From Anadara kagoshimensis (taxonomy: Eukaryota; Mollusca; Bivalvia; Arcoida; Arcidae), in the NCBI GenBank assembly GCA_021292105.1, contig CM037860.1, positions 12,728,698 to 12,792,697 of the forward strand: 64,000 nucleotides of DNA, given 5' to 3'. The position numbers and the translations under genes were made by a program. Positions 801 through 51,696 of this stretch are shown here, one piece after another (positions within the stretch are counted from its first letter, which is position 1; the number at the start of each line of letters is the position of its first letter). Below the pieces are notes generated by a model, which was given only the letters and a program-made list of their open reading frames with translations, was not told the DNA's origin and made no database searches.

Positions 801-929
801 CTTAATTGCATGTTGATCAAGTACTCTGAAATCAAATTCTGCTAGTGCTGCTTCCTTTGTGGTTTTACATGGAACTGGCGGAGGAACATCCTTTGGTTGT
901 AATGCGGTTCCATCAAAGTTGCGTGGACG
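801..929 (-). CDS. Paralogue C exon 2 (Pro-rich linker)
   Basis: 129 nt, 43 codons, phase 0-0. Acceptor TTTTTCGTAG, donor GTATAC. It encodes a Pro-rich stretch (PPPVP) followed by EFDFRVLDQHAIK, matching the DYQTVDNYVLN segment of paralogue A and DYDFEVFDE of paralogue B. There is no stop in this frame. Confidence 0.75.
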
Positions 930-5239: not shown

Positions 5240-8200
5240 CTGAAAAACAAACAAAACTAAACGTCAAACAGCACAGTACCACTAAGTAATACCAACAAGG
5301 AAATTCAGCGAAGTAGGACCCCCGCCAATAGGCACTTTTTGTAATTTGCACCTATGTTCAAATGGCCAATACTCCAGAAAAATTAGCAAACTAACTGGAT
5401 AATGATGAAGGATGGTGATATACACATCGCCTATTAATGTTGATGCTATGCAAATTAAGATTTTTGCCTAAAATACATTTATTTCGAATAACTAGTGAAG
5501 AATACATAGCGTAAAGTATTTTTCACCTACCAATATGCACCTAAAACACACACTTGGCAATAGCAAACACAATCAAATACAAACATACTAATCAGTGTCC
5601 AAATAACAACCGAGATTAAGAAAATAATGACAGAAACGAGCAAGCAAGACAAGAACAAGAAACAAACATTAGAACCACTGCTTCTAAAATTAGTGAGTTT
5701 GGACGTATTTAATGATAAAATTTCTTGTACTATTGAAGAGCCACAATTAACCAACTTACTCCATAACTAGATGCCCTTTAAAAATTAAAAATAACAAGAA
5801 ATATGTGAGCTACTTAGTATACCCCCACTTAACACTTCAACCATTGACCGTACATGTAAAGTTGAATTTTATTATGTCCTGTAACGTTGCTGAGGTCCAA
5901 CAAAAAATTGGTATCTTTTTATTCAATATGACCAGACGTAGATGTTTCAATGCCTTTTTATGATGTTTTAAGTGGTTACTGCAGTGTTACTTTTATCCAT
6001 GTCCAACTAAATTATATGATCAAGTGTTTTAGTTTATATGATCAAATGTTTTAATTTATATGATCAAATTTTTAATTTTTATGGACAAATTTGTGTTGTA
6101 TTTTTTTACATGCATGTATTTTAATTATAGATATAATATGTAGTGTCTCGTAGGCCATATGTGGCCGAATATAAAAATTTTATAATGTTTTTTATGTGTA
6201 TATAAACATTAAATTTTTATATAAAATAAAATAAATTATTATTATTATTATTATTATGTAAAAACAATAAGCAGGAAGTAGATGTCTGGCAGACTTGAAA
6301 TCGTTGCTTGTGCTATGGAACCTCATATTGAACTTTGTTTTTTCGGACGAAAGTTAAATCAGTGTAACCCATCTTCTTCGAAGCGGGGGTATAAAAACTA
6401 AGATTTAATTTACAATAACAATAATCCAACAATGATATCTTACCCAAACATAGAACACGGCTGCACCTCTGCTGACGTCACGTATCTCTGTGACTGTAAA
6501 TGACCTCATCAATGATTTGGCGGTAGAGACCACTTCCCTGTCAACTGACCGGGGGTCAAACTGGACGATTCTTCTCATAATGTTTTCTTTTCCTGTTTTA
6601 TATAAGAACTTCTTGCATGTTCGCCAATCCTGAAGATAAAAAATATACCATTTTTTTAAATGTATATGATTTGTCAGTTTATACATAAAACGCTAAGAAT
6701 AGTGACGTCACCATATAGTGTCGAATCATTCATTTTTGTGGTGTATAATTTTCGTGGTTTCAAGGAAAAGGCATTGCATACGATGTTGAATTCTTGGTTT
6801 GTTGTTACCATTTAAGGTAAGTTTGTAACGAACATTATTTCGTTGAATTGCAAAATTCGTGGGAAAGGGTGTCCGCCAAAATCTACGAAAAATGCGGCAC
6901 CATTAATTAATGATTTCACAGAACGGCACAATGATATCAAAGAAGTTCAGCGGCTTTAAAAATATACAGTTCTAGTTTGGGTTAAACTTGCTTCTTCCAC
7001 TAAAACAAGAACAAATTCGATGTAACAAGTTTAAAAAATGTGAATTTTTTGAGAACATATTTCCGATTGTCAAATTTGGGCAGTCCAGACTCTTTTCACT
7101 AATGCAGAATATAATGTCTATATCGGTATTAATACATCCATCAGAATGTGACTAAGTAAAGTACAATATAAACAACTGTTTACAACATATCCATGATCTA
7201 GAGTTGGTTATAAATAACCGTATTAAATTAAAAAAACATATCAGGCAGTATAGCTACTTGAATCTATCTAAATCTTGAAATAAAAACAATAAGCGTGTTA
7301 TTTCAAAATATATTTTAACAAACTGCGAAATTATTTATTTTTGTGGTTCTGAGAACAAATTTCGTAGGGTCGTAAATTAATGGCTTGCAATTGTTTCCGC
7401 TGAAGGGAAGTTTGTAATAGAACATATAAATTTGCGAGTGATAGTATCCACGAAAACAATAAAAATGGGGAGAAAATTCGAATGATTTGACACATGTAAC
7501 TGAAAACGTATTTTTCTGATTCGGGGTGAAAAGGTTCTAGATAACACGAAATCCCTAGTGATTTAACCTAGTTTGTAAACAGAGTAGAAATGACAAGTGA
7601 CTTTTATTCGTTTGTATCTAAATCACCAGTGAGTAGTATATAGATGCAACATATCTGCACACATTGTAGGTATGATGCATCTATATACTATTCCAGTGAA
7701 ACTATCCTTTGAAACAATTAAATTGGTGGAACAAATGTTATAATAATTGGTTCGTTTGTACATGCCTACCTTCAAATCACCTGTATCATCTCCCAATAAT
7801 AAAGCCGTGGCTGCTAACACTTGGTGTACACCTCTAGGTGGGGTAGGGTACTGTTTCATCTCTGTCAGAACATTCTGGTTCAGTTGTAGAACGTTCTTAG
7901 ATAAATGTTCTATTCTGTTAAGTCTGTTTAACACTCTTGTAGCCACCAGGATCTGCATATCAAGTTTCTTGTCAAAATTGACAAATCTAGCCCGTTTTAT
8001 TGCCTTGGCCAGTAACCCCTTTCTTCTGCAATGACATGCTGCTATTAGATCTGAAATGAAGAAAATTCATTCAATAGTAATACGGGCTAAAATGACAATG
8101 CTTAAGGTATTGATCCTCACACATCTTATAGATGTGGGTTTTAAGCGCAACTTCTTTCTTAATATAGCTTTTACGAATACATGTAATTAAAACAGAAATA

Positions 8201-8886: not shown

Positions 8887-11800
8887 GACTTGTTTTATAT
8901 CCTTACATTGTTTGGCCTTGAGTAATTCTATGGCCCTGTTGGCTGCTGCCTCGAATGTTTTACCATCTTCATCTGAAGGTGCTGTAGACTTGTATATCTG
9001 TAGGTGCAGCACTAATGCGTGTAAATCATTCAGCTTCATTGCTTTCTTGACGTTCTTCTCAGCTTGTTTGTGTTTAACTGAAAGTATAGAGATTATTATC
9101 TGTCAGTAAAAAGACTTGTTTTTGATGTATGTGCTGCATGTTCAGATGCGTTTTGAAGAACGAGATTTAGAAAGTTACTCATTTGCTGTAAAGCTGAAAA
9201 AGTTTCTGAATACCGATATTGTGACTAGCTTAAACAAATTCGCAAGAGAACGGTAATATAGGTAAATTCCTAAAATAAAAAACTGGTGGTGTCATATACC
9301 ATTTTTTTAATGTATTTATGATTAAATTTAAAAAATATGGTATATGACAGTAGTATCGAAACTAGACGATGGTCATCATAGTACGTGTATAATCTTTGTA
9401 TCAATATATCAAACTCTAAATCAAAACAAAACGTTGTAAAATTGTCAATGACGGCACTCTTCATCCAAACTTGGAAGTTTTAACATCGGTCCCCTCTGTG
9501 AGTTCGTCTTGTCTTGATAGCTTGATGTTTTGTGTTCGAACAAGCTACCATGTCCATGTTTTTATAGACAATAAGTATTATTTTTTTATTTTAACAGAAA
9601 ATATAAATGACTTTCAAGAGTATTACAAACCTGATTAAAATCAATAATCAATATTAAAAACAAACATACCAGATCACAATATCTTAGAACAACTTACCTT
9701 GACGTTTATATGCCTCTCTTTGTATGGGTCATTTCTTCCAACACAGGACTTTTTACAGATTTTTTGTCATCCGATTCTGTCGGCTGGTCATCGCCTGTTC
9801 CATTGCTTTCATCAACGTCATCAGGATTAATCGTCATGTCTTTCCCTTCCACGTTATCCATGTCCCCATTTGTTATGTCCTCACTTTGGTTTTTATTGGA
9901 ACGATTTTTGTTCTCAATTATTTCATCTACAGTTTTGACTGGAATGATAATTTTGTTTGTGTCTTTGTTCTCTTGTATTTCATCTGGTTCTACTGGTGTT
10001 TTCATAGCATTTTCTTTGTTTTTCCTCTCGATATCGTCCTCTATTTCGTTATTATTATCCTCTATAACCTTATTTGTTTCTATAATCTTGTCTAGCTGCG
10101 AGACGGACACGTCGCGATAATCGTATATATTATCGTCAATGTTTTCATATTCGTTTTCCGAAATAGTACCATTCTGTGACTTGTTTTCGTTTTCACTTCT
10201 ATCCTTTACCTCTTCTTCTTCCTCTTCCTGTTTCTCCTCTTCCGGTTTGAGCATTTTCATGAGTGCTTTTATGTCTTCGTGATACGTATCCTGTGGGTCC
10301 CGTCTCTCTATTATATATCTACCTATACCAGTCATACTGTTGCCTTTATCCTTTCCGAAAACATCAACTAAATACTCTCCATAGTCTTCTACAGTTACTT
10401 CTAAGGAGGAATCTTTGCGTTCAATCTTGCTCATCTTTTTAACATTTGATCACAATCTCTCGCATCTCTCCTACAAATATTGGCAAACAAAAATTTGCAG
10501 TTATGACGAAGTGGTATTTTGACGTTTTCTCGGATGTATGTATGGACTCCGTAGGCATTTCGTCAATGATGTCGTCATCATCAAACTTTACCCGTTTTGA
10601 AGCATAGCCACTTGAGTTTATTAAGCCACTGTAAACGTCATATATGAGATCTGGATTCTCATCTTTTATACCGAAGACATTGATAGAGTATTCTCCCTTT
10701 ACAGGCATGTCAATGATGAACAAACAAAGCCCCTCTTCCTCGCGTTTGTCGAAACTCATTCTACTACTGGCATTTCGTCTGGCACTGAACACTTCACAAA
10801 TAACTTAACCCCGACATGTTTTACCTCAAATTCTAATCTAGCCTTGCCATCCCACCCTTTTATAAGTCCACTTGGGTGACTTAATGGATAAATGTCCAGT
10901 AACTTTGCACCCTCCTTTTGTCCAAGATGGTTTCCTATAATGTCTGGATATGGCGAAACGTCAACTGGGTCGTTTTTACACATGACCATAAAATTAAAAT
11001 ATTTGTATCTTCGACCAATTTGTCATGTTCATAAATGTCTGCATATATTTTTAAAGCATATTCACCGGATTTTGCTACCCTGACGTTCACAATGAATTCA
11101 TCATGGTCAAACCGTGAAAAAGAGTACCTTGATAATGCTGCGTTGTCGTGCTCTAATGATTTCAATGAATGGTAAATGTGATGATTTCCCGCCACTTTTA
11201 TTCGCACTTCCGCCTCGCCATTGTTTGTATGAATACATGAATCATTCGGAGTGATGGTAACAAATCCATATTTTTCTGCGTGTGGATTTGGTCCCCAACC
11301 AATTTCCGGACAATCAGGAAAAGGCATACAGTTCTCCATTGTTGCTGAACATTCAATGACATAGGTACATATAAGTTCGAATGAATCCGATGTTTCAAGG
11401 TCACACCCAAAAATATCCATTTGGAATTTTCCGGTAAACGGAAACCGTAAAACAAATCGGAGATATTTGTTTGTGTGTTCGAACCCAACAAACCTTTCAA
11501 GGAATATATCAACTTTTTTGTCAGTTTCCAATTCTGTCCTTGACTGAAACAGAGTATACATGAATTTGAAGTTATGACTTCTTTCCTCAGGCAAAGTAAA
11601 TTCCAATCCAATAGGTTTCCCCTCTGATTTCAGACTACAAAGCATTATTTTCTTGTTTTTGATTCCCATTTGCATTTTGGTAAACATTTCACGAACATAT
11701 AAGCGACTTTCAAATTCTTCTACATCCAAAGGATGTCTCAGCAATTGCCAGTCCTTGTCATTTGGTAAATGTGTCCATATAAACGCGTCTGGGTCTGTTA

Positions 11801-14800
11801 AGTAATAAAACTCATTGATGCGCAACTGTTTTTCTTCTCCTTCGCAAAATCTAGTTATCCCAGCATTTCCGTCAATTAAGATATATACTGGTTCATCATT
11901 CCCTTCAGCACAGTATATAGACCAGAAAACATCTATAAACCTCCACTGGCCCTCAATGAACACGGCGTTCCACTGACTTGCCATTTCAACTTTGTCCAAT
12001 TTCCCGCCAATTTTGTACGACCCACTCTTTGTAATGCCCTGTATCACCACACACGGTATGTCAGCAAGTCTGTAAATGAAACAGTGTAACTCATCATTAT
12101 CAAGTACCAGAAAAGTAAAGTGGAGTATTGTTTAAAGCATAAGTCAAACTTATTTCACTTATATCAAGGCGGTCAGTTTAGGGATGACAGAGGGAACCGG
12201 AGTACGTGGAGAAAACCACTGACACTTATCAAGCGAACTGAAATCCTATGGCATTATGATCTATTTCTCGTGGGAATAGAGCATATGCGGTGTTATCCGT
12301 AAAACGTGCGGTTTTGAACACTCGGCCACCGATGTCCCCATCAAATAAAAATATCAAGGGAAGACTATTCATTAACTTTCGACATGGCTTCGTTGTGCTG
12401 ATTTTAATCGTTATGTCCATCATGCGATAATACACGTGGCGGGTGTAGCTAGCTAAACAGCAAGTGCTTACCCTTCCGGAGCACCAGGCCTCACTTCCCT
12501 GGTGAAAGTTCACGTGTCTAACCTAACTTGTCAGTTCCAAAGTTTTTACTTTGCTTCTGGATTGTGATTTGGACATCGATTAGTATGTTTGTTTTTGATA
12601 TATTGTAAAATGCTGTTCCTCGCATAGGTGCTTAGAGAATGGATTTTAGGTATTTTATAATATATATGATAGGCTAATTTTTTTTTATAAAATACTTAAA
12701 ATCCATTCACCGAGAACCATTGATTTCTAAGTTTAAAATTTAAAATTTTAGAGTTAGATTACTGTGCCGTGATCAAAGGCATTCAATATATAGAATAGAA
12801 ATACATACAATTATAATTATACATTGCACTTACTCGCACAATATATACAACAGCTCAGCATGTGTGCCCTGGCCACATTGGATCTTCAGGAAATATTCCA
12901 GTGGTGAGTCCTGTGGTGGAATGAGTTCAGATTCTATGTTGTAGATGTCGAATGACGTCACCCAGCGATAGAGCGTTCTCATACGCAGCATCTCCTCCAA
13001 TAGGTCACCGTCTGGCGTGATTACCAAGTATTCCACAACTTGCCAAAATGTTCCCAAAAGTAAATCATTTGGTGCCTGCAATTAAGATTGACATTTTTTT
13101 AGCAAATTCATTTACAAAGGATGTGAATTTATTTATTATTTATTAAGCTTTTTAACTAAAAATACTTGAAATATAAGTAAAATAGAAGAAATCCGTTAAA
13201 AACTAAAAATGAACTTGGCAATAACAAATGTAACAAAAACACATAACAATTAAAATTTCTGGATATCTTTTTATTAAACTCTCGACTTTTTATGGACAAT
13301 GGCTTTGATGAAAAGATAATAGTTTATTTCTAGACTTCTGAACAAATTGTACATATTGTCATTTGACATTTGTTTATTAGATACATGATTATCATGTTAT
13401 CAATACATGTATACTAAAGCTCCAAAATTAAGTATGTTCCAGTATTTCTCAAACATTTACATATTTCAACAGTTATTAAATTCTTCAGAATCAATGTTCA
13501 TATGTATTTGTCATTTACTCATTTTAAGTACTTTGTTTCATGAAAATGATTACATTACACACTCATACCTCCGTGGCACACTCGTCAAAAACTTCAAAGT
13601 CATAATCGCTGATTAAATCATGTTTTCTAGCTCTGGTTGGTCTTGGTACTGGAAGTCCGTTCTTTCCGATCGTTACTGGTTGATCTAGTTCATATGAAGC
13701 CTAGAAAACAGAATAACATAATATCAGTGCTTTTGTTTTACGTTTCATGACACAGTGGTCGAGTGGACTAACAAGAAATCTGTGAACTACTGCTAACTTA
13801 GTATACTCCTGCTTTTAACTAAATCATTGACCGTAAATGTCGACAAATAAACTAAGTCGGCAAAAGGAAGTAGTTGCAGGCAAACTTGCGGCATGGGACG
13901 CATACACAATTTCAAGTGCCTGTCTTTAGTAGTTGCCGAGGAAGCTGTTACGATTTTTTTGTATCGAAAAGACGGAAGGACAGAGGTAAACCTGTATACC
14001 CTCTCTTCTTCGAGGCGGGTATACATAATTTATAAGGGCGGGTTCGAATTCCACTTGCACAGATCCTATTGTGCATGAATTTTCTTGTCATTTTAGGAAA
14101 GTGACCTTGCATTGAAATTGGGAAAAATCAATTGACAAAATACACATGTTGGGAAGAATGAAAAAAGAAGTTACTCTGATTTAGTCATTTTAACATTTCT
14201 TAATAATAATATTTTACTTCTGTGTGTACCTTGTAACAGACATACACTGAATACACATCACCGTATGTATAAATGCGGGCTGTTGTTCAGATTAATACAA
14301 TCTTACACCAGTAACAGGGTAAGACAGAGATATCTGCTCATGTAAGATAGGGGTTTTCCCTATGTGAGATACGCGTATCTCACATGGCCACGTGACCTTT
14401 AGTGACGTCACAATCAAAAGACAATTACATGACGTCATCATGTGGAGAACATGACGTCATCTTGCGGGAAAACGACATCAAATTCTTCAAAATTTAGAAA
14501 CTTTGAGTGCGTTTCAAACGATAAATATTGAATTTTTTAATGAACGATTTTGTTTTGTAGTTTATACATTTTGTATAAACCAAAATCCGGTACGATCTAT
14601 CCAATGGTCATATTTATTTTAAAGTAGAATGTCGAATTACAAAGTTAGATTTTACAAACATGGCGTCGATGTCTATGTTTATCGTACTTGAAGCCAAATA
14701 TTGGCACTAAAATGGAAGAAAAATAATCCATTATGAGTTTATCCATGTAGGATAGGGAAATCTCACCCTCGGGGTTGAACATTTCTGGTCAGAGACTCGG

Positions 14801-17800: not shown

Positions 17801-18440
17801 CCAGATTGAAAAAGGGTCAATATGTGATTATGTAGTAAATAGTTGTTAAGATATTTAAGGACACACCTTTCAAAGACTTTCCCAAGTATGCTAATCAATG
17901 AAATAGGGCGATAATTACTAACATCGTCTGTTTTTTCCTTTCTTGTGTACTGGAACAACATTTGCTAATTTCCATAATGACGGAAAAGATGAGTTATTTA
18001 AAAGTTTATTAAAAATAAACAGAGAGGTGAACTGAGTTTGTCCGCACCTTCTTTCAGTAATCTAGGATGAATACCATCAGGTCCAACTGCTTTAGAAGTA
18101 TCCAATGAGAGAAGAATATCTCTGACATCACTTTCTAAGAGAGTAATGTTATCCAGGAGAGGATAATTAGGCTCTGGTTCTATAGACATTGGAAGAGATA
18201 CAGAATCATCGTCAATGTAAGACTGAGAGGAAAAATATTCATTAAAGATATTTGTTACATCATCAGGGTCATCATAAATTTGATTGTTGAATAACAGGGA
18301 ATGAGGAGTAGATTTGCTAGAACAGTCCATAAAATTTTTACTTCGCTTTTGGCTCATGAAAGGTGTTAATTTCCTATCAGATTACTTACCTGACTAGATG
18401 ATGTACTTGGTCGTGGTGTCTTAGAGGTGTTACTCCCCAT
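5090..18440 (-). CDS. Paralogue B, KY/hillarin-like pseudo-transglutaminase with dynein-stalk-like C-terminal module
   Basis: Eight-exon model: 18390-18440, 13569-13700, 12834-13075, 9698-12069, 8907-9077, 7770-8050, 6444-6629, 5090-5239. The total is 3,585 nt, or 1,194 aa. Domains: Met-Gly N-terminus (MGSNTSK); Pro-rich linker; transglutaminase-like core at about residues 62-190, with the catalytic Cys position occupied by Gln130 and the His position by Ser173, and Asp188 kept; KY-type beta-rich region; a long Asp/Glu/Asn-rich segment; helical repeats at 933-1083; a module resembling the dynein heavy chain microtubule-binding stalk domain at about 1060-1160; basic tail. The large exon is open only if four compensating single-base frame changes are accepted (two of each sign, net zero). 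It is therefore either a recent pseudogene or a locus with assembly indels. Probable role by family: a cytoskeleton-associated scaffold, not an enzyme. Confidence 0.75.
6235..6257. repeat. (ATT)n microsatellite
   Basis: Seven or eight ATT units in the last part of the intron between exons 7 and 8 of paralogue B. Confidence 0.9.
6444..6629 (-). CDS. Paralogue B exon 7 (dynein-stalk-like module)
   Basis: 186 nt, 62 codons, phase 0-0, same length as the paralogue A exon at 41268-41453. It encodes DWRTCKKFLYKTG, IVQFDPRSVD and GAAVFYVW. The order D-W-x(4)-K-L, F-D-x-x-x-V, F-T-V-x-x-I and S-x-A-A-x-x-x-x-W follows the core of dynein stalk domains (dWxxakkll, fDkdni, FtpevV, SkAaxglcxWv). Confidence 0.85.
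7770..8050 (-). CDS. Paralogue B exon 6 (helical repeats, start of dynein-stalk-like module)
   Basis: 281 nt, entry phase 1, exit phase 0, identical in length and phase to the paralogue A exon at 41793-42073. It encodes a Leu-rich helix (RVLNRLNRIEHLSKNVL) and then YPTPPRGVHQVLAATALLLG. The P-P-x-x-V/I-x-x-x-L-x-A-x-x-L-L-G pattern is the opening of the dynein heavy chain microtubule-binding stalk domain. Confidence 0.85.
8813..8883. repeat. (TA)n microsatellite beside a splice donor
   Basis: About 70 bases of pure TA. On the minus strand it begins about 22 bases after the donor of paralogue B exon 5. Reading frames across it encode only Tyr-Ile repeats and are not genes. Confidence 0.95.
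8907..9077 (-). CDS. Paralogue B exon 5 (helical repeat)
   Basis: 171 nt, enters in phase 1 and leaves in phase 1. Acceptor ATACTTTCAG, donor GTAAGGAT. It encodes HKQAEKNVKKAMKLNDLHAL and later ANRAIELLKAKQ, a two-helix repeat matching the end of the large exon of paralogue A. In A this part is not separated by an intron. A (TA)n tract begins about 22 bases inside the downstream intron. Confidence 0.8.
9698..12069 (-). CDS. Paralogue B exon 4 (core C-terminal half, KY-type beta-rich region, acidic region; four frame changes)
   Basis: This single 2,372-nt exon starts after ATTTACAG at 12070 and ends at CAAG|GTAAGTTG. Entry phase 2 and exit phase 1 are compatible with its length, but the reading frame changes four times: near 10,990, 10,770, 10,435-10,500 and 9,710-9,733. 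Each change is placed by alignment with paralogue A. It encodes ADIPCVVIQG, SQWNAVFIEGQWRFID (Ser replaces the catalytic His, Asp kept), then INEFYYLTDPDAFIW, and several beta-rich segments ending in GEYALKIYA and GEYSINVFG motifs like those of KY/hillarin proteins. Positions 9,710-10,260 encode about 180 residues of Asp/Glu/Asn-rich, probably disordered protein that paralogue A lacks. Confidence 0.75.
12150..12340 (-). mobile_element. tRNA-Leu/Ser-type SINE, degenerate
   Basis: Head GGGGACATCGGTGGCCGAGT lies at the high-coordinate end, with TATCAAGCGAACTG and ACTTATATCAAGG in the body. Lies in intron 3 of paralogue B, just upstream of the large exon. Confidence 0.6.
12432..12592 (-). mobile_element. 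Dispersed repeat R1 fragment
   Basis: CACGTGGCGGGTGTAGCTAG, then GCACCAGGCCTCACTTCCCT and GGACATCGATTAGTATGTTT. Lies in intron 3 of paralogue B. Confidence 0.8.
12834..13075 (-). CDS. Paralogue B exon 3 (transglutaminase-like core, N-terminal half)
   Basis: 242 nt, phase 0 in and phase 2 out. Acceptor TTAATTGCAG, donor GTAAGTGC. It encodes a helix typical of the KY core (MRTLYRWVTSFDIYN) and then CGQGTHAELLYILC. The usual transglutaminase-like pattern is G-x-C-x-x-Y-A-x-L. Anchored on A-E-L and I-L-C, the catalytic Cys column holds Gln (residue 130). Confidence 0.85.
13569..13700 (-). CDS. Paralogue B exon 2 (Pro-rich linker)
   Basis: 132 nt, 44 codons, phase 0-0. Acceptor TTTTCTAG, donor GTATGAGT. 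It encodes GLPVPRPTRARKH and then DYDFEVFDECATE, the counterpart of exon 2 in A and C. It is separated from exon 1 by a 4.7-kb intron holding the LINE and the foldback element. Confidence 0.75.
14170..15003. mobile_element. Foldback/MITE with terminal inverted repeats, left arm split by an insertion
   Basis: A perfect 25-bp inverted repeat joins 14170-14194 and 14979-15003. A second perfect 28-bp pair joins 14308-14335 and 14952-14979. On the right the two arms are contiguous (about 53 bp). On the left they are separated by 113 bases. The centre has a further pair of roughly 70-bp arms (about 14725-14795 and 14807-14878). No transposase is present. It lies in intron 1 of paralogue B. Confidence 0.8.
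15601..15824. repeat. 56-bp tandem repeat, four copies
   Basis: Unit beginning ATTGTTAAAATACATTGTTC repeats at 15601, 15657, 15713 and 15769 with almost no divergence, so the expansion is recent. Intron 1 of paralogue B. Confidence 0.95.
16080..18365 (-). mobile_element. 5'-truncated non-LTR retrotransposon (LINE) with reverse transcriptase
   Basis: The minus-strand reading frame covers most of a non-LTR reverse transcriptase. AVGPDGIHPRLLK opens the RT, then NYRPISLIS, FLDISKAFDRVWH, GVSQGSILGP, and the catalytic F-A-D-D (RLFADDTSLY). The C-terminal part holds CLCGKTETTKHYIFDCP, a Cys-Cys-His-Cys knuckle typical of Jockey/I/CR1-like elements. No endonuclease is present upstream, and frame changes between about 17,960 and 18,000 interrupt the RT. 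The element is therefore truncated and dead. It is inserted in the same orientation as paralogue B, within intron 1. Approximate 3' end at 16,080, in an A/T-rich stretch. Confidence 0.9.
16420..18357 (-). pseudogene. LINE reverse transcriptase reading frame, broken
   Basis: Two segments in the same nominal frame (17998-18357 and 16420-17961) are separated by stops. A conserved stretch in another frame (PSLWKLANVVPVHKKGK) bridges them, which implies two single-base indels. All the main RT motifs are visible downstream, from NYRPISL through FADD to the C-terminal Cys/His knuckle. It is not host coding sequence. Confidence 0.9.
18390..18440 (-). CDS. Paralogue B exon 1 (start codon)
   Basis: 17 codons beginning M-G-S-N-T-S-K and ending at a CAG|GTAAGTAA donor, phase 0. 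Gly2, Ser6 and Lys7 suit N-myristoylation. Upstream, TTTTAAG at 18472 could be a 5'UTR acceptor. A LINE remnant begins only about 20-30 bases inside the following intron. Confidence 0.75.
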
Positions 18441-39659: not shown

Positions 39660-42600
39660 CTGAAATAAAAATTTCCTTCATTTGTCATACTGAAAATGTT
39701 TCATGAATATTAGAGCAGTGTGCTTATAAAGGAAATGATGCAATTGGTGCTTCAGTTTGTTCTTTATGCTAACAATTTTTCATCTCAGCGAAAGACATGA
39801 AAGAAAAAACTTCAATCATTGTTTGCACATTCCGTATATATTTCATAAGTAACAAAACATTCCACGAGAACAAATTTCGTTTAAAATGAATACTGACATC
39901 AGGGTATGCAGTTGTCTGATCCGATTAAAGCATAATTGCATAATTTCCTTGTTTTTGTATCACTCAACACGAGCGACGAAGTGAATTTGTATAACAGAAC
40001 TATCTTATTACAGATTACAACAAATATCGTAAACACAGGGTATAAGTTAAGTTGCCATGCTACAAGCACGGTATCAACCATATATCCATTGTGAAAATAA
40101 AGTATTTTTTGGTTTACAAACGAGTCATGTTATCTTTGTCTCTAGTTCGTTAGGTTCATTGTATTTCAACAGCGAATTTTGATATATATAAAAAAATATT
40201 TTTCAAATGATGTACCAAATACCGATTTTAGTAACCTTGCCGTTTGACATTTCAGATATTTGAGGCACTTGTGCCAATTATGCTGTATACTGACAATATG
40301 ACTGATGTTTTGGGGATAATATGATTCATGCAATGTCGCAAGAGTAATTTAAGTATTTAAAATGAAACGTGTAAAATATCACATGACAAATAATGTAAAA
40401 TTAAAAAAATTATGCCGCTGAGATTTCTGAGGATCACATTCAGCAGTGAATAATGGACGGACTATTAACAATGACAATAAAATATTAATATCTAAGAAAA
40501 AAGGCTATGAAAAATAATAAACTTATGCTTATCGTTTAAAAAAGCTTAGTGCATATCTTTATCGAAGATTTTGATTGACTCTGAATGGGACAAAGAATCA
40601 TTTCTATGTTACGACACCAATTATATACATTAGCTCAACATTAATGCAATGATATTAATAATTCCATTCCCTTTTACTCCAGGCTTCAATTATGATCTTA
40701 CAAACAATACCACTAATCTGTTTACTCTACGTAAATATCACTATACTTTTTGTTTTCCTTTTCTCTTTTTCTGTAGAGCACCGCCTCCACCTCCAGCACC
40801 ACCAGCCATTCCAAACTCATCTTTAACGGCACCTCCTGTTGATTCCACCATATCAATCATACCCTTTGCCTAATTAATTGGACATACAAATAAAATAAGT
40901 TTATTTAGTTATTTAAGACACCTGACATAGCTTCCCTGGTTGAAGGTCGCGTGTTTAACCTAATTTGTCAGCTTGAAAGTTTTTACTTTAATTTGGGATT
41001 GTAGTTTGGTTGGTATTTTTGTTTCTGATTTAGTATCACAACTGATCTTGTGTTTGATTTTGAGCAGAAATAATGGTTCTTAACAAATAGCTTACACTCA
41101 ACTTTTTGAATGGAATTGTTCATCTAATCATTCACTCGTAAAATTTTCAATGGCATTAGCATTGAGCAATTACAGGAATAATAATAAACTAATAAGTTCT
41201 TAATTATTATGGTTCATTAATTTACAAATCATTACACAAAAAATTAAGGTTTAGACAATAAACATACCCAAACGTAAAACGTGGCAGCCCCAGCACTAGA
41301 ATCTCTTATCACTTCAAATGAAAATGGTTCCAGGATCTTCTTGGCAACCATGGCGTCTTCTAGATAAACGTCCTTGGGATCAAATGCGGATATCTTTCTC
41401 ATGGTGGATTCTCGTCCCATTCTTCCAAGTATATTCGCACAACATTTCCAGTCCTTGAAAAAATATTTATATATAAAGAATTCTTAAAACATTGCGAACG
41501 AACCCTAATATATATAATAAGAAGGATTTACATCGAAATCGACGTCATTTGTACGGAAACCAATATATTACGGGCAGACAGATCATACAATCAAATAGGT
41601 CCTAAATTGTATTTATTTTTGTATGAATATTGTACTGCTGCACGTCAAGTGGTTTTAAAAACCAAAACGGTAACAAAAAATTATCAATATAATAGTCATA
41701 CCTAGTGTAGTTTTAAATTAAAAAAACAAACATTCTAGTGATGAAAATATATTTCATTTCTTCGTTTGTAATTAAGTGATGTTCTGTCCTACCTTCACTT
41801 CTTTCTTTGTAAATCCTAACAACACAAACGCTGCTTGTAGCGTTTGATGGATCCCTAATGGTGGACTGATGTATTTCTTCAATTCGGCGATCGTCTTGCT
41901 GTCCATATTTAAAACCGAGCTTTTTAATTTTTCTATTCGTTTTAGTTGGTCTCTCAAACGACAAGCTAAGGCAATAGGAAGATCAAGCTGGTTGTCATAA
42001 TTGACTTCTTGTGCTTTCTTTATTGCAGCTTCAAGGGCTTTTAATTCCCTTCGCCTAGAAGTATCCTCCAAATCTACAATAAGATACGATGTGTCAATAA
42101 TATATTTAAGTTGTAGCGGAAAAAACATGGCAATAATCACATGTTATACCAGTGCTTATTTTACAGCACTAGACGGCAGATTTAGGGATGCAATTCATCA
42201 TCAGTAGTACTTGGACCAAAATTGTGGTACCACTACCAGAACCAAGTAGTTGAAAAAAATATCTAAAGGACGAAAATATATTAACAAACCCAATTCGGCT
42301 AGGGAAATACAGTTTGCTTTGAGATAACAAACAAAAAAAATATACACGAACCAAATATACGAATATGAACCAAATGATAAATATAAACTGAAACTATAAC
42401 TGATTGTGTAATGAAGATGTAACCGCCAGTGAAATTGATCCAAACGAATGTTTTCACTTTTTTGTTTGTTCTGAATGGAATAAATCTAGAAGGATTTCTA
42501 GTCTGTATACAGATTAGGTCAAAGTTAATACGTAAATTATTTTTTGGAAAAACTACAATAGAAGTTTTTCCTTTTATATTTACAGTCAGAAAATTGACAA

Positions 42601-45600
42601 ATGAATTGTCGCTTAAATTTGTATCCAGGGAAAATTTAATCAAAACATGTGAATCAAGTATTTTAGGGACCTGATTACCTGACCTATGGTACAATCAAAA
42701 CTTTTGACGCATGTTTGGAGATATAAGTCTAAAACTTAAGAATATTACAATTCCTCATTTAATTATTCTTTAATTATTTGAACATTAGATAATAGCTAAC
42801 ATGCTTACAAACATTACAAAACCTGAAACTTAGTATTTAATAAAAAAACTAAAGGGGAATCAAGAAGTTTTGTGAAAGTTTAACAGTAATATTTTGAATT
42901 TAGAAACTACGAACGATATATCGCAAAATACATAGTTCAGGCTTATCGCATTGACCCCCAGCAGTGTAAGTGTGATCGTGTAATCATTAAAGCGATGGTA
43001 ATCCTAATATATCTTCCAAAACAAAATATTTTGACTATTTTTAAATCTTTATTTTGATTTTGCCGAATTCTGTCATATATATATTTCAACATTATTAAGT
43101 AAAATTAGGTCGCTTTCCAAAATTTAACGAAAATACTAATTTTATATAAAATGCATTCATTTTTAGGCCCACAATCGATAATAATCAATATAAAATGTCA
43201 GATTAAAAAAACAGAGTACACATTTTCTGGCAACATGAAAACAGTCTCTACATTTAATCATAAGCTGACATATCTTTGAAGAAACACCTATAAGCATGGG
43301 TCAGTATCAACGAAATATTAAAATATACATATTTCTTACCTTGTTTTGCCTTTAGGATTTGTAACATTTTCCTGCCTTTCATTAATAAGTCGTCATGTGA
43401 CTCTGGATTTAATGCCTCGTACTGGAGTATTCCTTTCTCCAACATATCTGTGTCTTTCAAAACCAATCCTCTCTGAATGAGCTTTCGAGCCGCTTTCTTC
43501 CTTTTGTCGTCGTCAACTGCCTCTGGTGCAAAATTAGCTTCATCATCCTCTACTAACGTAAGTTCATCCTCTTCCGTTTCGGTCGAAGTGCCTCAATGAC
43601 CTGCTGTGTATCATCTTCGTAAAGTTCTCCAGCCGTTCGTCTATTGACCTGATATCTAGCTATGTTTGTTAAAACATTTTTATCATCCTTTGTATACATA
43701 TCAACCATGTACTCTCCAAAGTCTTTCAACATCACTTGTAAGAACTTCCTTCCTTCCTGTTGCAAGGTTTGCACTTCATCGTCTTTAGGCGGATCTGACG
43801 CATGACGTTTGGCCACGCATGCCAAAACTTCCTCATGACCTTTAGGAATAGGTATTACTATCTCGTTATCAGAGGTGCGGACGGTTTCTGTCCTTGCATC
43901 AACTGTATTGTCAATGTCACTGTTTTCACTTTTTGTGTCATCAATCTTTTCAGACCCATTAATCGAATGACCTTTCGAATGCAGCAAATACGAATGAACA
44001 TTGTAAATTCTACAACTGTCTTTCTTACGTCTTGCAAAAACATTCAAAGAATATTCACCAGCTATGGGCATATCGACATAAAACACCCACTGTCCATTTT
44101 CCTCGGAGGGGACAACTTTCATATATCTTGAAGCTACAGGGTCATTTGAATGAAGTTCACAGAATAATTCTACGTTGTTTTTAGCACTGAAAACAATTTT
44201 TTCGACTCCAATTTTAGGATCTATCGTGTGGCCCGGATGTGATATGGCCTTGACACCAAGTTTATCACTAATAGTACTTTTCCCAATAAATCCATCTGTT
44301 ACATTGGGGAAAGACGAATTTTGTCCATCTTTCTGATCCCATTTGATGAGATAGTTAAGAACATTTGGGGCATCACCTTCTTCACCTAAATCATTAGCAT
44401 ATAGTTTTAAGGCATATTCGCCTGCTTGTGGCAGACGGATGTTCACTACATATTCGCCATTTTCCTCTCGTATGACAGCATATTTACTCAAAGTAGCCTC
44501 ATCAACTACGGCATTTTTCAGAAGTTGAAACAGCCTAATGTCTTTATTTGTTCCCAGTTTAATTTCGACATCGCCGTCTTTTGTGACAATTACAGCTCCA
44601 TCATGTGTTTTTGTAATAATACCAGCTTCCTTTGCATCCATACCCGGACCCCAACCGATATCAGGACAGTCGGGTAAGGGCATACAGTTAGGCATCGCTT
44701 CACTACAGTTTATGACATAAGTACATGTTAAATCAAAAATGTCCGATTCTCTTACATCCAAACCGAAAACGTCCATCTTGAATTTACCAGCTCTTGGAAA
44801 TCTCAACGTAAACCGAAGCATATCGGTTGTATGTTCAAACAAACAGAATCGTTCGAGTGCTATCTCTGGTGCTTGGTCCTCGTCAGACGCCTTTGCTAAA
44901 TAAAGCATGTATTTATAACGCAAATGTTCACTTGTTTCCTTTGGCAACGTAAAAGGTAACTGTATTTCACCACCTTTGGCATACAAAACACATTTATCCT
45001 GACTCTTATTATTGAAGCTCATATTCAGATAGTGGAATCTCTCACGAACATATACACGTGATTCAAAGTCCTTCACACTCACAGTTTTAGGAAGTAATTG
45101 CCACTGAGGCTCGTCCGGAAAATGGGTCCAAATGAACTTATCAGGATCCGGTAAAAAGTAGAATTCGTTTATTCTGTGTTGTGTTTCACCTTCCGATGTT
45201 TCATCTTCGTCCAGTGACACGTTCCCGTCTGTATCGACAAGCTTCCATTCGCCAGATTTCTTTCCGACTACACAAGCTGATGCCCAAAATGCATCGATAA
45301 ACCTCCACTCGTCTTTAATGAAGACACCGTTCCACTGTGCTCCCATGGCTTTGCGGTCAACTTTTACTCCGATTTCGTATGCCGCACTTTTGTTCATGCC
45401 ACTGATAATAACACAAGGGATCCCAGCCATTCTGGAAAAAATATTTTAAAAAGTGTCAAATCAATGCTGAATCAGTAGAACAGCCAAACGCTGATTATTA
45501 ATTTTCGGAATAGATGTGGTTAGTTGTTCTGAAATAATTAAATTCCTGCATAGCACATTAAACAACAATGGGTTTTCTTTCATTTCAAGAGAAGTTAATG

Positions 45601-48600
45601 AGGCAAATATTTCTAACTTAGTCCATGTTTGCTGTCTTTTTGTAATCCTTACTACATGTTTAAAATATAAAACAAAATATCTTATTATCAAATTAAAATG
45701 GCTCATTTATTCATTTGGAGCCCTAAAAGAAAAAGAAGAACAAAATTGAGCAAAATTTGTATGTGAGGCAACCAGGTTTGTGATAATTTTTGCTGACATA
45801 CAATTTTATTTTAAAACTGGATGCTGTAACGAGTATAAAATTAAAAAAATATTGTCTTGGTGTAACAATGTAAGATACTTACTGACAAAGACCGGATATT
45901 AGATGCGCATGGTTACCCATGTTTCTTTGTATTTTAAAGAAATATTCCAATGGTGAGTGAACTGGAGGTTCTATATCTGTTCTCAAGCTGTAGACATCTA
46001 CAGCAGTCACCCATCGAAAGATTGCACGAAGCTTTGACAACTCATCCCATTCGGAATTCTTTGTTAGGTATGCTATGAGATCCTTGAAAGATCCCAGCAA
46101 TAGTCTTTTTGGTCCCTAAAATGCATAAATAGAAATACTTAGTGATTTTTAACATCTGTGAGTATCGATGTAGTTGTTATGCACCTAATGGTGTTATTCA
46201 TGCATGTAGCATTTAAAATAACGGAAAAATGTCTTATTCTGCTGAACAAAATATCACTTTGATGTTCTTTGTGATAAAGAAATGTCTTATTTTTTATAAT
46301 TCAAAACAATTAATCAAGATTTTGTGGAGTGAAATGAAGTTTTACGCTCCAATCAAGATTATGTCACTTATGTAAAGGTTCGTAAATGGCGTAGAAAATG
46401 GGAGATTCTTTGGAAAACACAGACTTTGATCCGACAAATTTTCTCACACTAGAATCTGACTGAGTGGGATTCGAACTTAAGTGGTAAGATGCACTGTGAT
46501 CCGGAAGTCGGTGCTTTAGACAACTCGGCTCCTTAAAGTATGAAACACAAAACCAAACATACCAATCTATGTCCAAATCACCAAATACCAAAAACCAAAT
46601 TTTTTGAAAAATAACAAAATTATTGCAATTTCAATGTTGCTAAATTTAAGGTAAGGAAAAGCTAAACTACGGAATGATTGTGTAACCGGACCCTGGTGTT
46701 TAATAAGGGTATGTGTTAAAACTATATGTACAATCTTTTTTAAATTATATTTCATTACATATTACATTTAGTTATAATAACATGCATTACATGCAATACG
46801 AACATCTTATAGTAGCATCATGCAGCTGTATATAATAACTACTACTGGCTATAGAATTCTGTAGTACTGATTTCTACATGCAAGTACTTACGTCAGTTTC
46901 CCCTTCATCTGACTAATTAAAAAATAAAACCCATATATATATATACTACTAGTAGTATTATACCCCCGCAAACTAGTTTGAGGGGGTATATAGGAATCAC
47001 TGTCCATCTGTCGGTCTGTGTAAAATCGTGTCCGGGCCACATCTCATTATTGCTTTAGATGACTCATAAAACTTCATATGAATAATCTTCATGGTCCAAA
47101 GGTGTGTCATGACCTTGAAACAATGTCATGTCGGAAAAGTCAAGGTTGGGGTAAAACAGTTAATGTTGGGGTGGGGGTATTTGACTCTCAAGAGACAGTT
47201 CTAGTTTAATTCAGCGATAACCTTGACCTTTGAATTTTACCACTTTACTTTCTTTTGATTTAAATATAAACAAAGCAAAAATAGCTTCAACTTAATGACG
47301 GATTCCATCACCCTACGTATTTATAATGTTATATTCTGCACCAGTTCATATTCAAAACACAATCCAAAAATCGAAACTAGTAAATTTGGTTAAACACCTG
47401 AACTTCTACCAGTGGAGTGAGGTCGGTTCGTAGAAACAAGGTTTAACTACATAACCAAATCAAAAGAGCCTTTCCCAAATCACCTGAACATTGCATATGT
47501 AATGACCTTTAAATATACCGGTGGTAGGGGACCTCATGAAAACACAAAATGTAACAATAAGTACAAAAATATCATGACTTCAATCTGCCTGCTTCTGGTG
47601 CCAAAACACAGCTATGATTCATATAACAATTGATCAAGATTTTGTTGAATGAAATGAAGTTCAACGCTCCAATCAAGATTATTTCACTTATGTCAAGGTA
47701 CGTCAATGGCGTAGTAAATTTTGAGAAAACACAGACTTTGCCTAGCGAACTGACAAATTTTCTCACACTAGGATCTGACTGAGTGGGATTTGAACTTAAG
47801 TGTGATCCGGAAGTCGGTGGTTTAGACAACTCGGCTCCTGAAAGTATGAAACTCAAAACCAAACATACCCGCCCATGTCCAAATCACAATCCAAAAGTAC
47901 AATGAAAAGTTTAAAAGTGGCAAATTAACACATTAACGTCAACGCAGGAAGTGAGGTCGGGTGCTCCGGAAAAGTATTCTTTTGTGCATGTTTCAAATCG
48001 TTAAACCATTCAACCAATCACTGACATATAGTACTTATTTAAACCACTTCCTAAGAGTTCCAATAACTTACGTTAAGGACATAGTTATCGACAGTCTGGT
48101 AGTCGGCTTCATTAAAGATGTCTGCCTTTTTCTTCTTTGGAGGTACTGGTGGTGGTAACTGTTTTCGTTGATATTCTGTTGATGGTCTCGGTGTGGTATT
48201 GTCAACTTGTCGTGGACCCTAGTACAAAAGAAAATATATAGTGTTAAGATTTGAAATAACGTTTGAAATTAATCCCAACAGTCCCTTGCCAATTCTGACA
48301 TTTAATAATTATACATAAATTGAGGTGTTAGCAGCTAGTACTTGCGTACTTGAAGGAAATATATCAATACGACATACTTTTTCGTACCCACGGTAAGCAT
48401 TACTATTAAGTTTGAGGACTCATTTCAAATTTTTTTTAAGTATTTGGTCAATTCCTTATACTCTATGACAAAGACGCCTACATAATAATATGGTCTCGTT
48501 TGAGCTGTAAATGCTATAAGTGGTGTACCAAAATGACGACCAAATCGCTATTTGGGGTCATATGTACAAGAGGTAAAATTCTAATCGAATATTAAAACAG

Positions 48601-51600
48601 AAAAAATTCAATTTTATAATATGAAACAAGTTTCTCTTGTTTGAATTTAGGAGTTTATTACTAACTAAAGACTTTTTACTAGATACATAAATATAAAATT
48701 ATAAAACCAACACAATTATTATTCGTCCTCGTATCTATATTTCTGTTATGTATATTCTGTTATTCTGTAATATGATTGTCAGATTTGCTACTTTTTACTG
48801 TGTTCAATAATCATAGAAAGAGTTGGGTTGAGTTGCGTTTTGGTCAAGAATATTTTACTTTTATCGAGACGCCGCCAGCTATAGGCGAAAGTGCAGAAAT
48901 TTTGCCTGTGCGTTGCGCTTATGGCATTATACAGCAGGGTTCTTTAAATAGCGTGCCAAGCCCATCGTGACACGGAACCTCGTTTAAGTTCCCATCCGAA
49001 AGAATCGCGACTTTCATTTCGTAATCCCGAATGCTTGGCAGAAGAACAGTTACTACCCACTTTCAAATCTTGGGTCAGACCCGGACGGGGTTCGAACCCA
49101 CGACCTCCCACTTATAATCATAGAAAGAAAGTCTGTATAAAGTAGATTTTAGTGAATGAGTTTGTTTCTTGATAAAAAGTAAGAGGTAGAAAAGTTGCTT
49201 GATTAAACGGGGTTCTACGTCCAAGTCAAGAATAGTTCATCTATATCGAGATGTCACCAGTTATAGGTGAACTTTGCAGTGCCCTCAGGGCAATGTGCAG
49301 GGCCACACCTGTCGTGGCACTGAGCATCAGTTTTTAAACTCTCTTCCGAAGGAGCTCGTGACTTTCATTCCTAAATGCTGAGTTCTTAGCGAAAGAACGG
49401 TCACTACCTATTTTCAAGTCTTGGTCAGACCCAGCCGGGGTTCGAACCCACGACCCCATATACGGAGCGAGCACTCTACGAACTGAGCTACCGTGATGGT
49501 AAATAAAAAGAGATAGAAAGAACAACATTAATAACAACACCAATGTAAAAAAGCTCTTTTGAATTGAATAGATTTGCGCTCTTATTCCAACAAATCAAAA
49601 CAACAAAAAGAACAAAGCGACAGTACACAATCTCAATCGACATCAAAAGAAGCACAGAAATTAAAATTCCTTGTACCATAATAGTAATATTTTGTATTAT
49701 TTGCAAGCTATAACCCACACTTATCTGTGAGTAAATAAGCTAAAAAGCGTACCCACATATGTAACCACATACTATTAACATTCACCATCTTTGTACTCTC
49801 CAATGTAACCCCAAACCATTACCCTCACTTTATAAACCAAACCTTCTGTAACCGGTGACACACTATGCAATGAGATTGAATTTACCCCATCCATGCCCCA
49901 GTTTCACAATCATTCCTTAGTTAAGATTTTCATTAACTTATATATAGCTAATATTTGCAATCTTTTATAGAATTCAAAATACAATTTTGATAAAAACTAG
50001 AAAACAGGTGTTATAAGTTTGAAGCCATCTTCAAAAAGGAACCTTATAATAACAAATATCTTGAAAAATAACAAAATTATTGCGATTCTTATGTTGCTAA
50101 ATTTAGTTTAAGGAAAAATTTAAACTAAGAAGTTGTTGTGAAACCGTGACAAGATGTTAAAAAGCGGTATGTCTGCAATAAGTTTTAAATTGCATTTCAA
50201 TACATACAACATTTATTTCAATAGCATGCAGTACGTCTATACAAAAACTAGCAACATGCAGCTGTATATAATACTTCTACTGATTATATAATTCTGTAGT
50301 ACTGATTTCTACATACTTACGTTATTTTGTTCTTCGTTTGACTAATTAAAAAATAAAACCTATGTATATATATACTACTAGTATGATTTACTGCAGCAAT
50401 AACCTTGACCTTTGAATTCTACAACTACCTTTAATTTGAAAAAAAAAACCATCGATGTAAAACTGGACAGACCAAACATGACTTCAACATAAAGACGGAT
50501 TCAATCACCCCGTGTATTTAAAATGTTATATTCTGTGCCGAATGTTATGTATATACTTCTAGTATTATTCGGCGATAACCTTGACCTTTGAACTCTCTTT
50601 TGAGAACAATAATTGATGCAAACTGGACAAACCAAAAACTTCAACATAAAGATGGATTCTGTCACCTTGTGTATTTATCCTGCATCGAATGTCGAATATG
50701 GAAATCAAAAACAAACATACCGTTACATGTTCAAATCACAATCCAAAAATCAAAATAAAAAAAGCTTTGAAAACAGTTTACGTTAGTTAAACACGTGAAC
50801 TCCCTCCAGGGCATTGAGATGGGTTTAAAGAAACAAAGTTCAACTACAAAAAGAACTTTCTTTCAGAATTTACCTTCACCGTGTATATGTAATGACCTTG
50901 ATATATGCCAGGGATAAGGACACTAAGAAAACACAAAATTTAACATTGAGTACAAATAATAATGACTTAGATCTATCAGCCACTGGAACTTAAACAGCAA
51001 GACGAACCTTCAATAAAAACACAATTTCACTGAAACATCTATTGATTCTACCACATGGTCGCTTCTTTCTTAACTTTACATATTATATCTTTTCTTTTAA
51101 CTTCTCTTAATATACCTGCATTACACAAATCCACAAACGAATGGCACAATGACAAGTTCTGTGTGTATAATGGCTTGGACTAAAACTTTTTTAAATTAAA
51201 AGTAATAATTCAAGTATACTAGTATATACAGCAGTAAGAATTTCAAAGATCAATATGTCGCGCCTAGCTCCTAAGTCGCCATAAGGTTAATTTTAATGCC
51301 ACAATGCATTGAGGGACAAAAACTAAACCTGACGAAACCAAATGAATGCTTAATGGCATATTTATGCATTGACATTATCTTCAAACAAAACTGGAATTAC
51401 CAAACCAAAAACACCAATATGATATATCTAGTGAACAGTTGAACTTTGTTTTTGAAGTCTGAAGCTCGTCCAGTTGTATAACTTAACCTCGGTACTTAGT
51501 GGTAGATAACTAAAAATAAAATAAGCTAATTCATGCTCACAGGTGCAGCGGATCTAGGTGCTACTCTAACAGTCGTAGCGGTTACCCCACTACTAGGCGT

Positions 51601-51696
51601 GCCATTCAGTGTTGTTTTGCCTACATTAGGTGTTGTCTGTGGTCGACTGCTGGTGCCAGCAATCGGTTGAGCTTGTGTACTGGATGCTGATCCCAT
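39495..51696 (-). CDS. Paralogue A, KY/hillarin-like pseudo-transglutaminase with dynein-stalk-like C-terminal module
   Basis: Ten coding exons: 51541-51696, 50321-50341, 48072-48218, 46892-46912, 45883-46115, 43340-45431, 41793-42073, 41268-41453, 40747-40869, 39495-39659. The sum plus one missing base is 1,142 codons including stop. Domains: Met-Gly Ser/Thr-rich N-terminus; Pro-rich linker; transglutaminase-like core (residues about 116-245) with Met181 at the catalytic Cys column, Ala224 at the His column and Asp239 kept; KY-type beta-rich region with GEYALKLYA and GEYSLNVFA repeats; acidic stretch; helical repeats; dynein-stalk-like module (about 965-1060); Gly-rich and basic tail. One frame change lies at 43,553-43,598. 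By family it should be a non-enzymatic cytoskeletal scaffold. The microtubule link is inferred from the stalk-like module. Confidence 0.85.
40747..40869 (-). CDS. Paralogue A exon 7 (Gly-rich and basic segment)
   Basis: 123 nt, 41 codons, phase 0-0, after TTAATTAG. AKGMIDMVES continues the stalk helix, followed by GMAGGAGGGGGA and KKRKGKQK. The donor is weak (GTATAG). If not used, the next codons are Val and TAG, giving a protein that ends here. Confidence 0.75.
41268..41453 (-). CDS. Paralogue A exon 6 (dynein-stalk-like module)
   Basis: 186 nt, 62 codons, phase 0-0. Encodes DWKCCANILGRMG, ISAFDPKDVY, AKKILEPFSFEVIRD and GAATFYVW. The landmark order (D-W, F-D-x-x-x-V, K-K-I-L, F-x-x-x-V/I, S-A-G-A-A, W) follows the dynein heavy chain microtubule-binding stalk domain. 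Confidence 0.9.
41793..42073 (-). CDS. Paralogue A exon 5 (helical repeats, start of dynein-stalk-like module)
   Basis: 281 nt, entry phase 1, exit phase 0. Acceptor CTTATTGTAG, donor GTAGGACA. RRRELKALEAAIKKAQEVN is a two-helix repeat. KKYISPPLGIHQTLQAAFVL then opens the stalk-like module. Same size and phases as paralogue B exon 6. Confidence 0.9.
43340..45431 (-). CDS. Paralogue A exon 4 (core C-terminal half, KY-type region, acidic and helical segments; one frame change)
   Basis: 2,092 nt after TTTTTTCCAG, ending CAAG|GTAAGAAA. It encodes MAGIPCVIISG, AQWNGVFIKDEWRFID (Ala replaces the catalytic His, Asp kept), INEFYFLPDPDKFIWTHFP, CPDIGWGPG and the GEYALKLYA, GEYSLNVFA and DFGEYMVDMY repeats. 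The main frame stops at 43553. A second frame begins by 43,590 and runs without stop to the donor, encoding EDELTLVEDDEAN and a helical repeat (KKAARKLIQRGLVLKD) that matches paralogue B exon 5. One base is missing relative to the phases on both sides. Confidence 0.9.
45883..46115 (-). CDS. Paralogue A exon 3 (transglutaminase-like core, N-terminal half)
   Basis: 233 nt, phase 0 in, phase 2 out. Acceptor ATGCATTTTAG, donor GTAAGTAT. KLRAIFRWVTAVDVYS is the KY-core helix. RNMGNHAHLISGLC is the catalytic-loop region, and Met takes the place of the nucleophilic Cys when A-H-L and G-L-C are aligned with typical members. Confidence 0.9.
46310..46535 (-). mobile_element. tRNA-Leu/Ser-type SINE
   Basis: At the high-coordinate end, GAGCCGAGTTGTCTAAAGCA looks like an A box of a long-variable-arm tRNA, and AAGTTCGAATCCCACTCAG like a B box. 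A nearly identical copy is at 47630-47840. It lies in the intron between exon 3 and microexon 2. Confidence 0.75.
46892..46912 (-). CDS. Paralogue A 21-nt microexon, copy 2
   Basis: Encodes SDEGETD with acceptor TTTTTTAATTAG and donor GTAAGTAC, phase 0-0. Acidic, inserted between the Pro-rich linker and the transglutaminase-like core. Confidence 0.65.
46955..47210. mobile_element. Dispersed repeat R2 inserted in one arm of a segmental duplication
   Basis: CCCCGCAAACTAGTTTGAGG palindromic start, GGGTATATAGGAATCACTG and GACTCTCAAGAGACAGTTC end. The sister segment at 50.39 kb lacks it, so the insertion followed the duplication or was lost from the other arm. Confidence 0.75.
47630..47840 (-). 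mobile_element. tRNA-Leu/Ser-type SINE
   Basis: Same blocks as the copy at 46310-46535 (GTCAGATCCTAGTGTGAGAA, TTGATTGGAGCGTTGAACTT), adjacent to an R1 copy. Confidence 0.75.
48072..48218 (-). CDS. Paralogue A exon 2 (Pro-rich linker)
   Basis: 147 nt, 49 codons, phase 0-0. Acceptor TTGTACTAG, donor GTAAGTTA. RKQLPPPVPPKKKKADIF could bind SH3 or EVH1-type domains (inference). It is followed by EADYQTVDNYVLN, the segment conserved in B and C. Confidence 0.85.
48826..49110 (-). mobile_element. tRNA-derived SINE
   Basis: B-box-like GGGGTTCGAACCCACGACC, then TCTGACCCAAGATTTGAAAG on the minus strand and the GTGACACG-type body. The A-box end is truncated. Same family as 20090-20394. Between paralogue A exon 2 and microexon 1. 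Confidence 0.85.
49200..49497 (-). mobile_element. tRNA-derived SINE, best-preserved head
   Basis: On the minus strand CGGTAGCTCAGTTCGTAGAG (A box) and GTGGGTTCGAACCCCGGC (B box) are both clear, followed by TGGGTCTGACCAAGACTTG. Body as in the other three copies. Confidence 0.9.
50030..51000. repeat. Segmental duplication, right arm
   Basis: Collinear with 46600-47640 including microexon 50321-50341. The CTTGACCTTTGAA block occurs twice within this arm (about 50400 and 50578), so a smaller local duplication also happened here. Confidence 0.8.
50321..50341 (-). CDS. Paralogue A 21-nt microexon, copy 1
   Basis: Encodes SNEEQNN between TTTTTTAATTAG and GTAAGTATG, phase 0-0. It lies in a segment duplicated at 46.6-47.6 kb, where the partner microexon encodes SDEGETD. 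Splice sites of both copies are intact. Paralogue B has no counterpart. Confidence 0.6.
51541..51696 (-). CDS. Paralogue A exon 1 (start codon)
   Basis: 52 codons starting M-G-S-A-S-S-T-Q and ending at CCT|GTGAGC, phase 0. Thr/Ser/Pro-rich and probably disordered. Gly2 with Ser6 fits N-myristoylation. The frame stays open five codons past the donor before a stop. Start chosen because it is the only Met in an open frame after the 5'UTR acceptor, and because B and C begin alike. Confidence 0.75.

Follow-up and report, generated by a model that had tools for sequence, protein, structure and literature searches.

A window of 64,000 bases from the genome of the bivalve Anadara kagoshimensis (G000:C4:12728698-12792697; G+C 33%, N count 0; host genome 1.115 Gb in 36 contigs) was analyzed, which contains the two genes A and B and the candidate first exons of a third tandem gene, C. 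All three encode relatives of KY (kyphoscoliosis peptidase) and hillarin, and the C-terminal module of these proteins is, as judged by sequence comparison, homologous to the microtubule-binding domain (MTBD) of dynein heavy chains. The best explanation, to which we assign a probability of about 0.55, is that these KY proteins are non-motor linkers which took over the MTBD of dynein and may be anchored in a membrane. A transglutaminase-like core and KY immunoglobulin (Ig)-like domains are common to KY, hillarin and the proteins described here. In contrast to KY and hillarin, A, B and C add a helical linker and a C-terminal dynein-type MTBD, and the catalytic Cys and His are absent (by eye). Hillarin possesses an N-terminal LIM domain. 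To our knowledge neither vertebrate KY nor classic hillarin carries a dynein-type module.

The module is encoded by exons 5 and 6 of gene A and by exons 6 and 7 of gene B (Table 1). In both genes the landmark order that an earlier note on this DNA had described was recovered. It is the helix and landmark order of the dynein MTBD (PF12777; 6rzb, 6kio, 8glv, DNAH6, DNAH2), with EIKS..PP in helix 1, followed by W, FD, S.A and a final W. A search of the PDB sequences revealed a dynein MTBD as the best match for gene A (E 8.9e-4) and another dynein MTBD for gene B (E 1.9e-4). A two-row profile gave a best E of 1.1e-5, and 44 of its 45 matches up to E 10 were identified as dynein heavy chains, either from the title or from length and position; the remaining one was DRC2. 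The best match of a 14-row family profile, all rows of which are modules from this genome, had an E of 4.7e-13. All 60 among the matches listed (of 74) were dynein heavy chains, identified by title, entry, or length plus alignment; one of these chains bears the title of a different protein. Alignment of this family profile with six dynein MTBDs by hhalign resulted in a probability of 99.2% (E 3.6e-19). Thus, the dynein stalk homology proposed in the earlier note is borne out by significant profile matches.

The hhalign result was controlled in several ways. The reversed profile gave 11% and 60 column shuffles gave at most 1.9%, on which grounds a chance similarity to dynein is rejected. The probability was 98.6% for the core from PP to W, 98.0% for the rows of A, B and C, and 95.7% for the row of A alone. 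The first 50 columns yielded 0.3%, and the linker and the helix resembling coiled coil 1 (CC1) of A and C had no MT match in Pfam; a coiled-coil bias is therefore rejected as well. An origin of the dynein likeness by chance or from a coiled coil could point to single members of the family, most of which stay under the Pfam cut-off. Set against the profile results, their controls and the upstream helical part, which alone has no match, this idea has a practically negligible probability. At the level of structure, a model predicted for the single 62-residue module exon from two rows had a mean predicted local distance difference test (pLDDT) value of 55, too poor for a fold comparison; the MTBD is divided between two exons.

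The KY protein and the module belong to one gene. This is seen in gene C, the greater part of which is located to the left of the window (L039). Here an open frame of 1218 codons extends from the exon that encodes the second core half, passes the linker and the two module exons and reaches the stop. The frame spans five exons with AG/GT borders and matching phases and has no frame break. Since the exons of gene C for KY, linker and module join into a single reading frame, the fusion that the earlier note had read from A and B is real. Its statement that the exons are phase-compatible holds too: A and B agree in the phases of their module exons, and AG acceptors and GT donors are present wherever they are required. 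The same borders are found throughout the seven exons of gene A (minus strand, 51696-40741) and the eight exons of gene B (minus strand, 18440-5090).

Past the last W, gene C continues with AKQKLNQIEEEVGPLESAASDLD, in which the register of dynein coiled coil 2 (CC2) is kept (by eye, versus dynein rows). Its C-terminal tail is of low complexity and basic (324 residues, 55 K/R, 26 D/E). The part past the W that would correspond to CC2 is short in genes A and B and about 25 residues long in C; a CC1-like helix is present. Gene C, read from its KY exon up to the stop, contains no AAA+ ring, the content being KY, linker, module and low-complexity tail. Compared with the dynein MTBD, the KY proteins are thus devoid of the surrounding AAA+ motor, have a CC2 stub in A and B, and contain a few extra residues before helix 2.

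The genome was surveyed for the module with two queries, the module of gene C and a copy at C4:29.0M, at E <= 10 with merging of loci. Only the best candidates were scored, and all genome-wide locus counts are lower bounds. Twenty-two of 28 module loci are situated downstream of a same-strand KY Ig-like match, at a distance of 1.1-4.3 kb. The chance expectation for such a neighbourhood is approximately 0.0004 per locus, where the copies share descent and are not independent. At E <= 0.01, a KY match was found upstream of 20 of 22 module loci (hand count, query loci included). The two stronger loci without a KY Ig match are C15:3.12M and C4:29.0M; the other four without KY have an E of 0.25 or higher. 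Five pairs of module loci are near-identical and may be haplotypes, which leaves about 17 distinct genes (by eye).

The two strong loci without KY Ig match would suit the view that the module exons form separate genes adjoining KY genes. This view is highly improbable, because the frame of gene C stays open across linker and module, with phases that match, and the arrangement recurs at 22 loci. At C15:3.12M (L072 and L051) a KY gene with a lost core is possible, since an open reading frame (ORF) at L072 resembles the proline/lysine-rich exon 2 of gene A. C4:29.0M corresponds to L071 and L050.

The Ig-like KY family itself is greatly expanded in this genome, with 127 matches at 64 clustered loci, some of them perhaps haplotype copies. 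Twenty-two of the 64 loci bear the module; at the sensitivity of this survey it was undetected at the other 42. One further candidate, L066 (G000:C18:43323937-43324104), was ruled out as an additional KY gene, as its neighbouring ORF matches the 1509-residue axonemal chain 9fqr_Xl (E 2.5e-16). This chain is titled A-kinase anchoring protein 14; by its length we take it to be perhaps EFCAB5. The EFCAB5-like, non-KY gene at L066 shows a weak stretch similar to helix 1 of the dynein MTBD (AELRSYNDPP..; E 0.14, below significance) and is possibly a second non-dynein carrier of an MTBD-like stretch.

The borders of the second module exon are constant. Its acceptor lies one codon before the first W at 14 of 14 loci and a GT donor follows directly after the last W at 13 of 13, which fixes the phases as 0-0. 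In an unrooted tree of 12 of the 14 modules and six dynein stretches, the KY modules formed a separate group on one side of a 100/100 branch. Constant exon borders and the split in the tree fit a single capture with subsequent duplication. Hence, a tandem-duplicated, genome-wide KY/hillarin-like family including A, B and C probably gained the dynein MTBD once. Five dynein loci were inspected by eye: in two of them an intron closely precedes the same W, in a different phase, and in a third the intron is situated slightly farther upstream. Capture of the exon together with a dynein intron was consequently dismissed, as the differing phase leaves a shared intron unsupported.

In the KY part, the Ig-like KY domain (PF23265) was recognized in genes A and B with the E values given in Table 1. 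The family Transglut_core, which has a Pfam cut-off of 23 bits, was matched by gene A (Table 1) and by gene C with 26.9 bits. Inspection by eye revealed that the catalytic Cys is replaced by M, Q and M in A, B and C, respectively, and the His by A, S and A, with the Asp retained; the triad positions are placed as we presume them from the known motif. With Cys and His replaced in all three proteins the core is probably not an enzyme, in agreement with the pseudo-transglutaminase postulated in the earlier note. The KY exon of gene A had no match below E 0.8 among the PDB sequences.

Several observations weigh against a working KY linker with a dynein MTBD, in addition to the two module loci without a KY match. 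The earlier note had directed the module exons to the Pfam stalk family, and this assignment succeeded for gene B, not for gene A. The module of gene B reached 24.8 bits (E 1.3e-5), where the cut-off of PF12777 (MT, dynein stalk) is 24 bits; those of genes A and C gave no MT match in Pfam. Four of ten further modules matched MT, all below the cut-off and at profile positions of approximately 95-203. An exon-by-exon search of the genome with PF12777 at E <= 0.001 resulted in 40 matches, none of them at A, B or C. The mostly sub-threshold Pfam scores of single members, together with the division of the domain between two exons, suggest why this architecture could be missed.

The protein starts belong to the same group of observations. 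Proteins beginning with MGxxxS/T can be N-myristoylated, and the first exons begin with MGSASS (A), MGSNTS (B) and MGNNPS (C). The motif occurs eight times on the minus strand, including A, B and C, and once on the plus strand. As the starts of B and C were located by searching for MGxxxS/T, the myristoylation-type starts are only suggestive.

Furthermore, the reading frames of A and B are interrupted. In exon 4 of gene A the KY ORF (45445-43553) and the ORF on the module side (43592-43254) are in different frames. Dropping a 35-nt GT...AG stretch (43557-43523) renders gene A open from exon 3 to the stop. The break may reflect an erroneous base, a genuine frameshift or the excision of a mini-intron of 35 nt, which is short for an animal intron; decay and assembly error are indistinguishable here. 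The large exon 4 of gene B contains at least three frame changes, probably four, for which true decay and assembly errors cannot be told apart either. These breaks, one in A and three or four in B, are what one would expect if A and B were decaying pseudogenes and working proteins came from C and other loci only. We regard this as unlikely. Every module exon of A and B is open with intact splice sites, the break in A can be bridged by the possible 35-nt intron, and base errors of the assembly are possible. The identity between A and B amounts to 42-46% in the module exons and 44% in the KY part. Their silent differences are saturated at 0.73-0.79, and the non-silent differences are fewer: the module shows 0.39-0.43, with silent values of 0.73-0.74, and the KY part 0.36. 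Judged by these non-silent values, conservation of the module comes close to that of the KY part.

The charges of helix 6 and of the core complete these observations and speak against microtubule binding. The helix 6 segment is less basic than in dynein: 12 of 14 KY copies have a charge of 0 or below and two have +1, one of which is C, versus +1 or +2 in six of six dyneins. A net negative charge of the PP-to-W core was found for seven of 14 KY copies versus two of six dyneins. In contrast, the helix 2-3 segment is more basic in A (+3), B (+5) and C (+5) than in the six dyneins (-3 to +3). With respect to binding, helix 6 and helix 2-3 pull in opposite directions. According to PMC6629372, the dynein MTBD contacts the microtubule via helices 1, 3 and 6, and the chief change upon binding is a shift of helix 1 together with the stalk.

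The main rival explanation starts from these charges. It proposes that the module kept the MTBD fold, lost tubulin binding and serves now as a protein-protein docking or dimerising domain. Helix 6, the net negative cores and the reduction of CC2 to a stub in A and B would be compatible with such a loss. However, the positions which mark the fold are retained across 14 diverged rows, with six invariant and six nearly invariant alignment columns, and helix 2-3 of A, B and C exceeds that of the six dyneins in positive charge. We consider a docking domain possible, with some doubt.

For the KY linker with a borrowed MTBD the following mode of action may be envisaged. The protein would start with a glycine that is possibly myristoylated, followed by a proline/lysine-rich stretch, the presumably catalytically dead transglutaminase-like core and the KY Ig-like repeats. 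A helical linker ending in the CC1-like helix would lead to a predicted six-helix MTBD and a short CC2 stub with a basic tail. In the mode that we see as most likely, core and Ig repeats would bind a partner on the membrane or actin side, and the MTBD would hold tubulin without ATP-driven release as a passive linker. In dynein, the MTBD grips and lets go under the control of the stalk and the ATPase ring. The protein cannot be a motor because it has no AAA+ ring and its stalk is only a stub. With the CC2 stub in A and B and no motor, any such binding would take place without an ATP switch. In a tentative extension, which we hold with less confidence, one capture by a KY gene may have given rise to about 20 non-motor linkers in this genome, each with a membrane anchor at one end and the microtubule at the opposite end. 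They would form a class of microtubule-associated proteins made from the foot of a motor.

We know of no description of the dynein MTBD outside dynein heavy chains. If the proposal is true, a motor-free MTBD family would represent a natural experiment on the behaviour of the unswitched domain, and the KY/hillarin family would gain a direct, testable link to microtubules. Among the papers listed by searches of open PMC text (in one case 12 of 210), no title or opening of an abstract described a combination of KY and dynein MTBD; an unremarked entry in a domain database is possible. For vertebrate KY, a place within a Z-disc network with filamin C has been proposed in PMC6078408, which also states that enzymatic activity of vertebrate KY was not shown and that the role of KY/hillarin is unsettled.

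Table 1. Exons of the KY/hillarin-like genes A, B and C in the window.
Feature	Position	Strand	Description
Gene A exon 1	51541..51696	-	MGSASS... start, N-myristoylation-type; GT donor after CCT, phase 0
Gene A exon 2	48072..48218	-	Proline/lysine-rich PPPVPPKKKK, then YQTVDNYVLN; AG/GT, phase 0-0
Gene A exon 3	45883..46115	-	Transglutaminase-like core, first half; Transglut_core 35.4 bits joined with part of exon 4
Gene A exon 4	43340..45431	-	Core second half, three KY Ig-like stretches, helical linker; frame break near 43557-43523; Ig-like_KY E 3.8e-56
Gene A exon 5	41793..42073	-	Helical repeat/CC1-like helix and MTBD helix 1 (..TIAELKKYISPPLGIHQTLQAAFVLLG..)
Gene A exon 6	41268..41453	-	MTBD helices 2-6 (DWKCC...SSAGAATFYVW)
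Gene A exon 7	40741..40869	-	Short tail past final W (truncated CC2), stop
Gene B candidate exon 1	18390..18440	-	MGSNTSKTPRPSTSSSQ; located via MGxxxS/T motif search
Gene B candidate exon 2	13569..13700	-	Second exon of the gene B model
Gene B exon 3	12834..13075	-	Transglutaminase-like core, first half; 42% identity to gene A
Gene B exon 4	9698..12069	-	Core second half and KY Ig-like repeats; at least 3 frame changes; Ig-like_KY E 6.3e-38
Gene B exon 5	8907..9077	-	Helical linker
Gene B exon 6	7770..8050	-	CC1-like helix and MTBD helix 1
Gene B exon 7	6444..6629	-	MTBD helices 2-6
Gene B exon 8	5090..5239	-	Short CC2-like tail, basic C-terminus, stop
Gene C candidate exon 1	1698..1721	-	MGNNPSNL; weak, located via motif search
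Gene C candidate exon 2	801..929	-	PPPVP...FRVLDQHAIK

Intron 1 of the gene B model harbours a reverse transcriptase ORF on the minus strand (16423-17964) with 514 open codons and a match to RVT_1 (E 2.2e-29). It is likely an inserted element of the long interspersed nuclear element (LINE) type. Two tandem arrays were also observed in the window, one at 56853-57413 with 28 copies of a 20-bp unit and one at 60277-60652 with nine copies of a 42-bp unit.

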